The translations under genes were made by a program, and so were the position numbers. 64,000 nucleotides of DNA. Source: Aeromonas fluvialis (GTDB lineage: Bacteria; Pseudomonadota; Gammaproteobacteria; Enterobacterales; Aeromonadaceae). Under the pieces are notes generated by a model. That model was not told where the DNA came from. It did not search any database and saw only the letters and a program-made list of their open reading frames with translations. The stretch lies in the NCBI RefSeq assembly GCF_000819885.1, contig NZ_CDBO01000074.1, positions 1-64,000 on the forward strand. The letters run 5' to 3'. Of the stretch, positions 23,138 to 31,676 are shown in pieces. Each line of letters opens with the position of its first letter. Within the stretch, counting starts at the first letter, position 1.

Positions 23138-23153
23138 AGCAAGAGGCGAGCCA
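23138..23153 (-). promoter_or_regulatory. Sigma-54 (-24/-12) promoter for the 4Fe-4S/formate dehydrogenase genes
   Basis: On the minus strand it reads TGGCTCGCCTCTTGCT. Against the consensus TGGCACGNNNNTTGCW it has exact GG-GC spacing and one mismatch. Predicted RNA begins about 45 bases before the GTG at 23082. A GGGACA-N3-TGTCCA site lies ~70 bases further upstream. Confidence 0.75.
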
Positions 23154-23185
23154 ACTCCCCCGGAAAAAAAGTGACTGACAGGGAG

Positions 23186-23779
23186 TCAGGATCCTGAAGG
23201 TTCCATTTCCCCACCTTTGGTTGGGACATTTTGTCCACCAGAGGAAACCAAAATGTCCCGATCGTCGGTGTGGGTTTGAGAATGGTTATCAGCCAGCTCG
23301 TCGGCGGCAGGTTCGCTGACAATCGCCACCGGTTCAGCGGATCCGCTGGCCGGATTGGCCGATTCGCTGTCCGGGGCGGTTACCTGATCTACCAGCCAGT
23401 TGCGCAGGCCAGCGGTCAGGGCCGCAGGCAGCAATTCGGGCTGGCTGAAATCCTGGGTGTAGTCGTCGAGCCCATCCGGCTTGTGGCTGCGAAACATGGC
23501 CCGCAGCGCCTCCTTGTCGGGGAGTTTGGCCTTGCCCGGCTGGGCCGTTGTTAGCGGCGGTTTGCCACTCTCGGCCCCCTCAACGGCAAGGGATTCACAG
23601 CTCCCCTTGTCAGTGCTGACTACGGGGCTATCCAGCGCAGTATCTGGAGTTTCAGCTTCGCCACTGCTTTCGGTTGACACGGTAACAGCCTCGGGAATGG
23701 CCTCTTCCCTCGGCTGCAATACCTGATGCTTGCGCGCCTCACTCTTGCGAGACGACCAGCGCTTTAGGAACTCACTCAT
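23186..23779 (-). CDS. DUF3306 protein
   Basis: The 197-residue protein starts MSEFLKRWSSRK, as DUF3306 members do, then has an acidic low-complexity section. The conserved core follows (LPDKEALRAMFRSHKPDGLDDYTQDF, split here: residues ~105-130), and an acidic tail ends the protein. It is found with DUF3305 in formate dehydrogenase clusters, so a role in assembly is inferred. Its start overlaps the DUF3305 stop by eight bases. The operator-like palindrome at 23223-23237 lies inside its 3' end. Confidence 0.82.
   Translation of the reverse strand: MSEFLKRWSSRKSEARKHQVLQPREEAIPEAVTVSTESSGEAETPDTALDSPVVSTDKGSCESLAVEGAESGKPPLTTAQPGKAKLPDKEALRAMFRSHKPDGLDDYTQDFSQPELLPAALTAGLRNWLVDQVTAPDSESANPASGSAEPVAIVSEPAADELADNHSQTHTDDRDILVSSGGQNVPTKGGEMEPSGS
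23223..23237. promoter_or_regulatory. Palindromic enhancer site (candidate response-regulator site)
   Basis: GGGACATTTTGTCCA matches 14 of 15 bases of the perfect palindrome at 31528-31542. It lies ~70 bases upstream of the -24/-12 promoter at 23138-23153. A further half site TGTCCC follows near 23254-23259. Upstream placement fits a sigma-54 activator site. Confidence 0.65.
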
Positions 23780-24326
23780 GGGCGCGATTTCCGCTGTCGC
23801 TGCCACGCTCACGGCCATCGGGGCCGGTGGCCTTAACGGCGCCACAGCTGGCTTGATCTTGGTTATCGACACCCAGCTGATCCTGCGCCCGTCCCTTGCC
23901 CTTCTTGCCCTTGCGGCGGGCCTCCAGCAGCTCGCCGTGGCGGCCGATAAAGGCCTCCACCCAGGCTTGCAGCGCCTCGGGCAGCGGGCAGGAGAGCACC
24001 TGCCGCTCGCCATCCATATAGGCGGCGGCCACGGTCTGGCTCAGGGTCAGGCCATCGGCCACAAAGCCACTGTCCACGCGGCTTCCGGTCACAAAGAGGC
24101 GGGGCGAGCCGGAGCTCAGATTGAAGCGATAATCCCCCCGCTCATCGCGAAACAGAGTAAGGGGTAAGGCACCAGCAGCCTCGGGCTCGGCGGGATGGAG
24201 CGCCGCTATCTCGAAGCGACGGCTCTGCCAGCGGCCAACCTGACTGTCGATGGCCTTTAACTCCAGTTGCAGCCAGCGCTGCGGGGGCAAGGTATTGGTG
24301 GTGTCTTGCACTGTCACGGCTCCCAT
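23772..24326 (-). CDS. DUF3305 protein
   Basis: The 184-residue protein has the DUF3305 core: RWLQLELKAIDSQVGRWQSRRFEI, split by residues ~15-40, then LTLFRDERGDYRFNLSSGSPRLF and LSQTVAAAYMDGE. The C-terminus is basic and low in complexity. It is the first gene of the minus-strand formate dehydrogenase cluster and overlaps DUF3306. The ATG at 24326 follows a GAGA-containing stretch that lies inside a long hairpin. Function is unknown. Confidence 0.8.
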   Translation of the reverse strand: MGAVTVQDTTNTLPPQRWLQLELKAIDSQVGRWQSRRFEIAALHPAEPEAAGALPLTLFRDERGDYRFNLSSGSPRLFVTGSRVDSGFVADGLTLSQTVAAAYMDGERQVLSCPLPEALQAWVEAFIGRHGELLEARRKGKKGKGRAQDQLGVDNQDQASCGAVKATGPDGRERGSDSGNRAHE

Positions 24327-24336
24327 CAGAAGGTCT

Positions 24337-24389
24337 CTGCCGGGCCGCCCTCCCCCGTGATCCACCCCGTTCGGGGCGGCTCACGGCAG
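24337..24389 (-). promoter_or_regulatory. Structured 5' leader of the DUF3305 transcript
   Basis: CTGCCG pairs with CGGCAG (24337-24342 with 24384-24389), and GCCGCC pairs with GGCGGC (24344-24349 with 24375-24380), around an inner CCCCG/CGGGG hairpin. The stem includes the bases just upstream of the DUF3305 start, so folding could control translation. I cannot say whether it is a known riboswitch class. Confidence 0.45.
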
Positions 24390-24429
24390 GAGATTTATGG
24401 CGGCCACGGCCATCAATGGGATAAGACAT

Positions 24430-30092: not shown

Positions 30093-30111
30093 CCCATCCG
30101 ATCACCCTTTA

Positions 30112-31467
30112 TCATTCGATGGCCCACTCCTTGAACTTGCGATCCAGCGTCTTGCGCGCTACCCCGAGCACCCGGGAGGCGGCCGACTTGTTGCCATCAT
30201 GGCTCGCCACCACTTGCAGGATGTGGGCCTTCTCCACCTCTGCCAGCGGCCACGCCAGCGGGTAGCCCTCCTCGCTCGCCCCCAGTTCGGCGGGCTTGCT
30301 GCTCTGCCAGTATTCCGCCGGGGGCTTGCCCAGCAGCAGGCAGCGCTCGATGAGGTTGCGCAGCTCCCGCACATTGCCGGGCCAAGGGTAGGCTTGCATC
30401 GCTACCACATCCTCGTGGGTCCAGCTCAAGGAGCCCATCCCCATCTCGGCGGTGAGCTGGCGGGTAAAGTGGTGTACCAGCGCGGGGATATCGTCGATGC
30501 GATCCCGCAAGGGGGCGACCGGCAGCGCTACTACGTTGAGGCGATAGAAGAGATCTTCGCGAAAGCGGCCCGCCTCTACCTCGGCCTTGAGGTTACGGTT
30601 GGTGGCGGCGACGATGCGCACATCCACCGCCAATTCGCGCTCGGCCCCCACCGGGCGAATGGCCTTCTGCTCCAGCACCCGCAACAGGGAGGCTTGCATG
30701 GCGAGCGGCATCTCGCCGATCTCGTCCAAGAAGAGCGTCCCCTGATGAGCGACCCGGAACAGGCCATCACGCCCCTTGCGGGCGCCGGTAAAGGCCCCCT
30801 GCACATGGCCAAACAGCTCGCTTTCGAGCAGCTCCGGGGCGATGGAGGCACAGTTGAGGGGCACGAAGGCCCCTGCCCGGCCGGAGAGCTGATGCAGGGC
30901 GCGGGCCACCAGCTCCTTGCCGGTGCCGGACTCCCCCTCCACCAGCACGGCGGCATTGGAAGGGGCGACCCGGGAAATCAGGGTCTTGAGCTCGCGGGTC
31001 TTGGCGCTGTCGCCGATCAGGGTAGGGGGGAACAGCTTGCTCACCTCCCGGCGCAGCAGCAGGTTCTCCCGCTCCATCTGGCGGCGCTCGATGACCCTGT
31101 CCACCGCCTGCAGCATCTGCTCGAGATTGAAGGGCTTGAGGATAAAGTCGCTGGCGCCAAGGCGCAGCGCCTTGAGGGCCGTCTCCATATCGCCAAAGCC
31201 GGTCATGAAGATGATGTCGCTGCGGCGGGTGCCGGGCTCGATGGCCTCGTGCCACTCGATACCGGAGCGCCCCGGCAGCCGGATATCGGCGATGATGAGA
31301 TCAAAATGCAGGCGGCAGCGCAGGGCTTCCGCCTCCTCCACGCTGGCGGCTGTCTCTATCTGGGCGAAGCGCTTGGCCAGCGCCTTGGCCAGAAAACTGC
31401 GCATGCCGGGTTCATCATCAAGGATCAGCAATGAGAGGGCAGACCAACTGCTGGCGGGGACAGTCAT
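30112..31467 (-). CDS. Sigma-54-dependent response regulator (NtrC family)
   Basis: The 451-residue protein has a receiver domain (DDEP at 17-20, phospho-acceptor Asp61 in IIADIRLPG), an AAA+ domain with Walker [12 protein letters not shown], the sigma-54-contact loop GAFTGA near residue 223 and Walker B TLFLDEIG, and a C-terminal Fis-type helix-turn-helix ([19 protein letters not shown]). All parts needed to activate sigma-54 RNA polymerase are present. It is the evident activator for the four -24/-12 promoters in this cluster. It is divergent from tupA, and a perfect palindrome lies between them. Confidence 0.95.
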
Positions 31468-31527
31468 GAAAAAAATACCTCGGGTTCGGCCAGGTTCCGG
31501 GATTGTCCCGGCGACCTTATAAACTGT

Positions 31528-31542
31528 GGGACATTTTGTCCC
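31528..31542. promoter_or_regulatory. Perfect palindromic operator between the response regulator and tupA
   Basis: GGGACATTTTGTCCC is a 6+3+6 perfect palindrome. It lies ~120 bases upstream of the tupA -24/-12 promoter and ~60 bases from the response regulator start, so it can serve as activator site and autoregulatory site. A near-identical copy is at 23223-23237. Confidence 0.7.
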
Positions 31543-31660
31543 GAGTCGCCTCTATCCGCCAAGCCCGATTAACAAAAGCGGTGCGGCGATCACGCTATTA
31601 ATCTGCTTAACAAGCGGTTTTTACATCAAAAAACAGGTCATAAACGGTTTTTACTCAAGC

Positions 31661-31676
31661 TGGCACCCTGCTTGCT
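31661..31676 (+). promoter_or_regulatory. Sigma-54 (-24/-12) promoter of the tup operon
   Basis: TGGCACCCTGCTTGCT matches the consensus TGGCACGNNNNTTGCW at all but one position. Predicted RNA begins ~30 bases before tupA. Two copies of CGGTTTTTAC (near 31613 and 31645) lie just upstream. Confidence 0.85.

Follow-up and report, generated by a model that had tools for sequence, protein, structure and literature searches.

What regulatory question is posed by a formate dehydrogenase (FDH) whose genes lie beside those for tungstate uptake, cofactor building and a two-component system? Such a cluster spans 15.9-36.4 kb of a 64,000-nucleotide stretch of Aeromonas fluvialis DNA (contig NZ_CDBO01000074.1, positions 1 to 64,000; "the window" hereafter means this whole stretch). 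A preliminary description of this DNA proposed that sigma-54 (RpoN) promoters with -24/-12 elements precede the DUF3305 gene, the 4Fe-4S/FDH genes, fdhD and tupA, and that they join enzyme synthesis, sulfuration and metal supply in one switch, a wiring not known to have been described. The reading favored here, to which we assign a probability of roughly 70%, is that a two-component system responding to formate controls a single sigma-54 regulon for a tungsten-type FDH. Comparative support for it is strong; the match of regulator to enhancer, formate as the signal, tungsten in the enzyme and action at a distance are parts that we infer.

Sigma-54 promoters follow the consensus TGGCAC-N5-TTGCW, with GG and GC dinucleotides 10 bases apart, and this spacing is present in all four elements. 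They were found at the positions and on the strands claimed: TGGCTCGCCTCTTGCT at 23138..23153 (minus strand), the predicted promoter of the operon of the 4Fe-4S gene, torD, the Tat-like protein, fdhA, fdhB and cytochrome b; TGGCCCCACTCTTGCT at 24430..24445 (minus), that of DUF3305-DUF3306; TGGAACAAAACTTGCT at 26106..26121 (plus), that of fdhD and a gene for an HTH/PBP protein; and TGGCACCCTGCTTGCT at 31661..31676 (plus), that of tupABC-mobA-mobB/moeA. The first three are assigned by consensus match and conservation, and the tupA element, which had been called nearly perfect, has zero mismatches to the consensus. The element at 24430 does serve as the predicted promoter before DUF3305, although what directly adjoins it is a 95-aa open reading frame (ORF) with no Pfam match, the DUF3305 frame beginning further in, at 24365 or about 24326. 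Across the 3.9 Mb genome the stricter pattern TGGNNC-N5-TTGCW was matched 106 times and a reversed control 45 times; 0.23 occurrences are expected in the 8,539-bp interval, where the four claimed sites and one more were observed. The Poisson probability of at least four sites is 1e-4 for a pattern that was chosen after the sites were seen, and the fifth site (29077-29092, minus) lies within the kinase gene and precedes no gene. By count alone the four elements are only suggestive, and their conservation is the stronger evidence.

This conservation was followed across 44 loci, the window included: 21 from Aeromonas (19 further genomes and one duplicate contig), 16 from Vibrionaceae and six others. 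Sigma-54 sites were scored from 330 bp upstream of each gene to 60 bp into it, with weights based on the known consensus and a threshold of at least 0.85; denominators are the loci in which the gene is present with sufficient upstream sequence. L002 and L143 are the same contig, and the pairs L134/L135 and L006/L176 each come from one genome. A site precedes tupA in 39 of 39 loci, and in 28 of 28 after removal of the duplicate contig and of ten Vibrio loci fetched by means of the tupA promoter 19-mer. Sites also precede the 4Fe-4S/FDH operon in 31 of 33 loci (missing in L176 and L014), DUF3305 in 32 of 33 (the miss, L003, scoring 0.84) and fdhD in 35 of 39 (missing in L176, L014, L011 and L012). 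Among control genes the threshold was reached by the response regulator in 1/41 loci, the histidine kinase in 2/42, the HTH/PBP gene in 0/24, fdhA in 1/33, fdhB in 0/15 and cytochrome b in 1/14; the higher-scoring controls were torD (6/32) and tupB (13/27 at 0.85 or more, 1/27 at 0.90). All four promoters are thus retained in Aeromonas, and almost all of them in the Vibrionaceae loci. Conservation of the promoters against these control genes leads us to reject a chance origin of the four sites.

The literature already reports dependence on RpoN for the orthologues of three of the four promoters, those of 4Fe-4S/FDH, DUF3305 and tupA. RNA sequencing of a Vibrio parahaemolyticus rpoN mutant showed lower expression of VP1510-VP1515 (log2 -3.17 to -4.75), and also of VP1508 (-1.84) and VP1501 (-1.45); VP1501, VP1508 and VP1510 were marked as V. 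cholerae RpoN chromatin immunoprecipitation peaks and their -24/-12 sites printed, with VP1501 and VP1508 listed as hypothetical proteins (PMC9817140). The three printed V. parahaemolyticus promoter sequences occur exactly in locus L179, before tupA, DUF3305 and the 4Fe-4S gene, and VP1501 has been named independently as TupA (PMC5517513). The strings "tungstate" and "molybd" are absent from the main text of PMC9817140. With VP1501 as TupA and VP1508 as the DUF3305 orthologue, the tungstate link is in part present, though unnoticed, in the published Vibrio data. The idea that this wiring was new is therefore correct only in part: its RpoN component is in print for Vibrio, while no paper that ties FDH control to the regulator, an enhancer and the uptake of tungstate showed up in searches of an open-access library, in which most papers were judged from their listing and subscription papers (Dong and Mekalanos 2012 included) lay outside the coverage.

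Two of the promoters are accompanied by a palindrome with the predicted enhancer consensus GGGACA-N3-TGTCCC. Before tupA, GGGACATTTTGTCCC at 31528..31542 lies between the regulator gene and tupA, 118 bp upstream of the -24 element; on the other side of the cluster, GGGACATTTTGTCCA at 23223..23237 lies 69 bp from the -24 element of the 4Fe-4S/FDH operon, within the 3' end of the DUF3306 ORF. The exact tupA palindrome, GGGACANNNTGTCCC, is unique in the genome. Its core 12-mer, GGACATTTTGTC, has 33 copies in 18 of 37 genus genomes, 17 of them before tupA, 16 before the 4Fe-4S gene and none elsewhere, compared with two occurrences of the reversed control in the 37 genomes. The 17 genomes that lack the cluster contain no copy, and two of the 20 that have it (G006 and G011) carry a variant. 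Allowing up to two mismatches, the 4Fe-4S-side enhancer is present in 31 of 31 loci having the promoter, in 29 of them 69-71 bp from the -24 element, and the tupA enhancer is present in 38 of 39 loci, the copy in L005 having three mismatches. Each palindrome has a candidate partner. The tupA-side partner would be the degenerate TTCCGGGATTGTCCC at 31495..31509, centered 33 bp from the first, whose TGTCCC half is kept in 17 of 20 rows (altered in L145, absent in L144 and outside the stretch in L134); the 4Fe-4S-side partner is the half-site AAACCAAAATGTCCC at 23245..23259, centered 22 bp from the first, with CCAAAATGTCCC kept in 17 aligned rows. From context, we infer that the neighboring response regulator is the activator that binds these predicted enhancers. 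A wider regulon was considered and set aside: the enhancer-plus-promoter pattern was found at 16 places in nine genomes, nine in known clusters, one in a Shewanella FDH group and six elsewhere, of which three are in Enterovibrio and, as judged by eye, one of the other three (L177, L178, L158) precedes nifU/nifS-like genes and two have no visible link.

The two-component system is encoded between the plus-strand fdhD group and the tup group. As had been described, the response regulator (30112..31467, minus) is of the NtrC type with an intact GAFTGA loop, and its domains comprise a receiver (PF00072), an AAA+ module (PF00158) with GAFTGA at residue 224, and a Fis-type HTH (PF02954); its closest match among named genomes is in A. 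salmonicida, at 93%. The membrane histidine kinase (27984..30092, minus) has an sCache_3_3 sensor domain (PF17202, E 3.2e-26), the only match found in the genome, with putative formate residues R245, T248 and T264. This Arg/Thr/Thr set is present in 31 of 31 aligned kinases (one contig counted twice, and sequences of fewer than 500 residues, from L007 and L013, left out), and all 10 further Vibrio loci have it as well. Its spacing of 3 and 13 is exact in L010, L011, L012 and L014, and the others have a longer loop. In the chemoreceptor PacF, changes at R142, T145 and T158 are reported to affect formate binding (PMC12501870), and because the kinase keeps these PacF residues, formate is its likely signal.

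The proposed mechanism is as follows. The kinase would sense a small ligand, most likely formate, through its periplasmic sCache_3_3 domain and would phosphorylate the NtrC-type regulator, which would bind GGGACA-N3-TGTCCC before tupA and the 4Fe-4S/FDH operon; its AAA+/GAFTGA module would then open RpoN polymerase at the four promoters. The predicted outputs are tungstate uptake together with MobA and MobB-MoeA, DUF3305/DUF3306, the enzyme with its 4Fe-4S protein and chaperone, and FdhD. The switch is larger than had been claimed, for mobA and mobB-moeA belong to the tup operon as well. At the DUF3305 and fdhD promoters of Aeromonas, activation would come from a distant enhancer, probably the 4Fe-4S one 1.2 and 2.9 kb off, or from free regulator. 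Such an arrangement would supply an NtrC-type system, so far without a known role, with a regulon, a DNA motif and a signal open to testing, would illustrate how tungsten import and cofactor assembly could be kept in step with what a single enzyme requires, and would account for published RpoN data in which a tungstate-binding protein remained hypothetical.

Several points weigh against the reading of one formate-responsive regulon, and they touch the signal, the enhancer and the two promoters at which the enhancer is rare. As to the signal, replacement of the corresponding Arg in Atu0526 raised its affinity for formic acid and abolished chemotaxis (PMC8698456). In a sequence profile search of the PDB, the kinase profile matched the chemoreceptor domains 8py0 (E 8e-4) and 8py1 (E 0.01), which both carry Arg, Thr and Thr at spacing 3 and 13; these matches are weak, and the chemoreceptor match covers only positions 216-288 of the sensor. 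The Arg/Thr/Thr set may be a feature of the family rather than proof of formate. The N-terminal part of the sensor matches only LuxQ, weakly (E 0.31). The same regulon could be run by a kinase that reads something else, such as another small carboxylate, redox state or, through TupA, periplasmic tungstate. Cache domains bind several ligands (PMC12415202), and tupA is divergent from the regulator gene; on the other side, one sCache_3_3 receptor that has the reported residues did bind formate (PMC12415202), and the relatives of this system in Rhizobium and Agrobacterium (L011 and L012; kinase 36-37%, regulator 49%) adjoin a different, NAD-type FDH with fdhD and have no tup genes in the 21 kb covered. 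In these two loci a pair of enhancers 22 bp apart and a sigma-54 site (L011 13344-13449, L012 13348-13451) precede the gene of a major facilitator superfamily transporter, whose best whole-length models are L-lactate and oxalate/formate transporters, both under cut-off, and which a tail-domain model of that group matches just over cut-off. This occurrence of the enhancer with a related kinase and regulator counts for the main reading. A kinase signal other than formate is possible, though on balance we doubt it.

As to the enhancer itself, the pattern with one mismatch allowed has fewer matches in the genome (6, two of them these sites) than its reversed control does (15), and it is therefore specific only in its tight form. 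As to the remaining promoters, no GGGACA-type enhancer lies within 260 bp upstream of DUF3305 or fdhD in the Aeromonas loci compared. Across all loci such a site precedes DUF3305 in 1 of 32 (Shewanella) and fdhD in 3 of 35, the latter being the DUF3305-leader site viewed from the opposite side, or similar. A weight matrix built from the sites of these same loci, with a background of 19 matches in 1,042,696 bases (L015-L081), was used to seek a further copy beside the two genes, and it found none in the window, L131, L133, L137, L144 or L150. The nearest enhancer in the window is the 4Fe-4S one; its distance is about 1.2 kb to the promoter of DUF3305 and 2.9 kb to that of fdhD. No upstream sequence is common to all Aeromonas, and a shared local enhancer is therefore unlikely there. 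Of the 10 close Vibrio loci (L179-L188), nine have a different palindrome, CTGCGA-N2-TCGCAG (0-2 mismatches), halfway between the promoters of DUF3305 and fdhD, at a distance of about 54-90 bp from either -24 element. This palindrome was not found between the promoters in L003, L005, L008, L009, L144 or L176; it is possibly the mark of another regulator's site, and, the ten Vibrio loci being closely related, part of its conservation may reflect descent. In addition, the VP1510 promoter was not shifted by purified V. parahaemolyticus RpoN on its own, and the authors of that work called the regulation of FDH indirect (PMC9817140); fdhD, presumably VP1507, was not found in the paper's printed table of RpoN-dependent genes, which is a selection.

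The least certain part of the reading is that one and the same regulator also controls DUF3305 and fdhD. The regulator might govern only tupA and the 4Fe-4S/FDH operon, with DUF3305 and fdhD answering to another enhancer-binding protein or to joint control. The scarcity of the enhancer at these two promoters, the Vibrio palindrome, and the unrelated sequence upstream of the DUF3305 and fdhD elements in most Aeromonas genomes all speak for this division. Against it stand a weaker GGGACA-type copy in the DUF3305 leader of 6 of 10 Vibrio loci, the copy before DUF3305 in Shewanella, and the fall of VP1508 together with FDH and tupA in the rpoN mutant, an observation that concerns RpoN and not which activator is used (PMC9817140). 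In the draft genome of Shewanella frigidimarina the group of tup, regulator and kinase and the group of FDH, DUF3305 and fdhD lie on different contigs, and the enhancer and a sigma-54 site precede tupA and DUF3305 and not the 4Fe-4S gene or fdhD; these split groups with a shared enhancer argue for action in trans. A division of the regulon appears rather unlikely. The notion of one switch holds to the extent of its conserved promoters, its cluster-confined enhancer and its published RpoN dependence, and is weakened in Aeromonas at DUF3305 and fdhD, which have no enhancer of this type nearby; the change in an rpoN mutant on which the preliminary description would have it judged is reported in V. 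parahaemolyticus for the orthologues of 4Fe-4S/FDH, DUF3305 and tupA, fdhD not being seen there. A chance origin of the -24/-12 matches, with the operons transcribed from sigma-70 promoters, is very improbable. The window has no excess of matches to the consensus at up to three mismatches (325 against 356 expected) and the stricter pattern is genome-wide only about twice its reversed control, but the promoters are conserved against control genes, homology on the fdhD side stops at the element, and RpoN dependence is published (PMC9817140).

The DUF3305 and fdhD promoters face away from each other in Aeromonas, and the gap between them appears to be an accessory-gene hotspot. In the window this variable cargo (24446..26105) has 34% G+C, and its ORF, from 24519 or 24579 to 26060, matches no family over cut-off. 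The 17 gaps with both ends visible, the window included, measure 1.1-4.8 kb and differ in content, and among the ORFs compared one cargo gene is common only to L131 and L149. Fifteen of the 17 have a G+C content of 33-38% and the other two of 42%, compared with 60% in the window. Homology ends at the -24 element on the fdhD side, and in many genomes it runs on for about 150 bp past the element on the DUF3305 side. In a PADLOC scan of 10 cargo proteins (about 30 cargo ORFs being listed), four, the window's own included, had no match and six had one: three matched PDC-S19, PDC-S49 and PDC-S31, a DUF4365 protein had PDC-M02A-type matches, a radical SAM protein had pVip-type matches, and one match was weak and of restriction type; some cargo thus matches candidate anti-phage families, a viperin-like one among them. 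The divergent species G027 has no cargo, and 77 bp separate its gene starts. In L135 (G006:C282:4076-4357) a partial second fdhD copy, covering residues 1-94 with one stop, stands beside the cargo and hints that cargo may arrive with duplicated flanking sequence. With about 1 to 5 kb of cargo between two promoters, the Aeromonas gap offers a natural test of the reach of a sigma-54 enhancer in the chromosome. A far-reaching extension of the reading would be that a membrane formate sensor controls the whole tungsten-FDH supply line (uptake, insertion, guanylylation, sulfuration and enzyme) through one regulator, that two Aeromonas promoters have lost their local enhancers and are driven from an operon-internal enhancer 1-3 kb away, and that the gap so freed has become a docking place for cargo, several items of it defense-like; taken as a whole this is speculative and rather unlikely.

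Gene families in the window were assigned by Pfam and NCBIfam profile matches, with model cut-offs noted. The order on the minus strand is DUF3305, DUF3306, 4Fe-4S protein, TorD-type chaperone, small Tat-like protein, fdhA, fdhB and cytochrome b; fdhD with the HTH/PBP gene and, separately, tupABC followed by the mobA-like gene and the mobB-moeA fusion are on the plus strand. DUF3305 (23772..24365, minus; PF11749 5.6e-20) starts at GTG 24365 or ATG ~24326. The DUF3306-holding ORF (23186..24013, minus; PF11748 2.6e-12 over residues 81-195) has a likely start at ~23779. The first gene of the FDH operon, the 4Fe-4S gene (21334..23082, minus), is named by profile match, and its start is probably the GTG at 23082 and not the TTG of the listed ORF. 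It is followed on the same strand by a TorD/NarJ-type chaperone (20703..21383, PF02613), a small twin-arginine-like protein (20422..20676) recognized from its sequence with no Pfam match, the molybdopterin subunit FdhA (17519..20398; best NCBIfam model TIGR01591, under cut-off), apparently with Cys, the FDH3 beta subunit FdhB (16855..17514; NF038355 1.1e-102, over cut-off) and a cytochrome b subunit (15887..16858; PF01292). The sulfurtransferase gene fdhD (26165..27022, plus; PF02634 1e-78) is followed after 3 bp by the gene of an HTH_17 and PBP_like protein (27026..27904, plus), a possible second regulator reading metal or pterin. This gene is present in Aeromonas, Photobacterium (L003), Enterovibrio and Sedimenticola loci and absent from Vibrio loci.

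The tup operon lies wholly on the plus strand. The product of tupA (31718..32551), a putative tungstate-binding protein, has TupA as its sole NCBIfam match (NF041772 1.2e-68), at 231 bits versus a cut-off of 400, and contains TTTS, named as the TupA motif in PMC5517513. The tupB match (32613..33317; NF041773 8.9e-53) is also under cut-off, and tupC (33331..34047), an ABC ATPase, is named from position and a weak TupC match (NF041774 3.7e-29) that is under cut-off and not its best match. A mobA-like NTP transferase gene (34019..34663; PF12804 2e-40) overlaps tupC, and the mobB-moeA fusion (34660..36438) is assigned by profile match and synteny; 10 of 13 loci (L002-L014) have retained the gene order tup-mobA-mobB/moeA. 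Tungsten at the active site of the FDH is suggested by the tup and cofactor genes, and this gene content is consistent with the report that moeA1, mobB and fdhD are essential for a tungsten FDH (PMC13197769). The cluster as a whole is accessory in the genus: of 37 genomes, 20 carry an fdhD orthologue of this cluster and 19 carry tupA, the contig of G021 stopping within the regulator gene. The predicted DUF3305 leader contains a GC-rich inverted repeat at about 24326-24420 (minus); a riboswitch there was considered, and an Rfam scan of the window matched only two tRNAs, both located elsewhere.

The FhlA-formate hydrogenlyase regulon is likewise a formate-linked sigma-54 regulon for an FDH and its accessories. 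FhlA binds formate itself, in the cytoplasm, whereas the system described here would use a kinase in the membrane together with a regulator that has a receiver domain, and would differ in its enhancer, its enzyme and its inclusion of metal uptake. The V. parahaemolyticus/V. cholerae RpoN regulon includes the same orthologous promoters (VP1510, VP1508 and VP1501) and differs in that the available portion of its description names no activator, enhancer, tungstate or formate signal and calls FDH control indirect (PMC9817140). PacF, McpF, Atu0526 and a gut sCache_3_3 receptor share a Cache_3-type periplasmic domain with a formate-linked Arg, accompanied in PacF by two Thr (PMC12501870, PMC12415202, PMC8698456); these formate chemoreceptors steer chemotaxis, whereas here the sensor domain sits on a histidine kinase. 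In Methylorubrum extorquens, MoeA, MobB, MobA and FdhD form one tungsten-cofactor route for FDH; that enzyme is another FDH, and the available portion of the report gives no shared sigma-54 control (PMC13197769).

Counterparts of the two-component system are also found by position in V. parahaemolyticus, where they are probably VP1502/VP1503. We take VC1522 of V. cholerae and VF_1401 of V. fischeri to be probable orthologues of the regulator. An AphA binding site is listed in VC1522, with the VC1522/VC1523 intergenic region beside it in the table (PMC6855506), and quorum sensing may also touch this switch.

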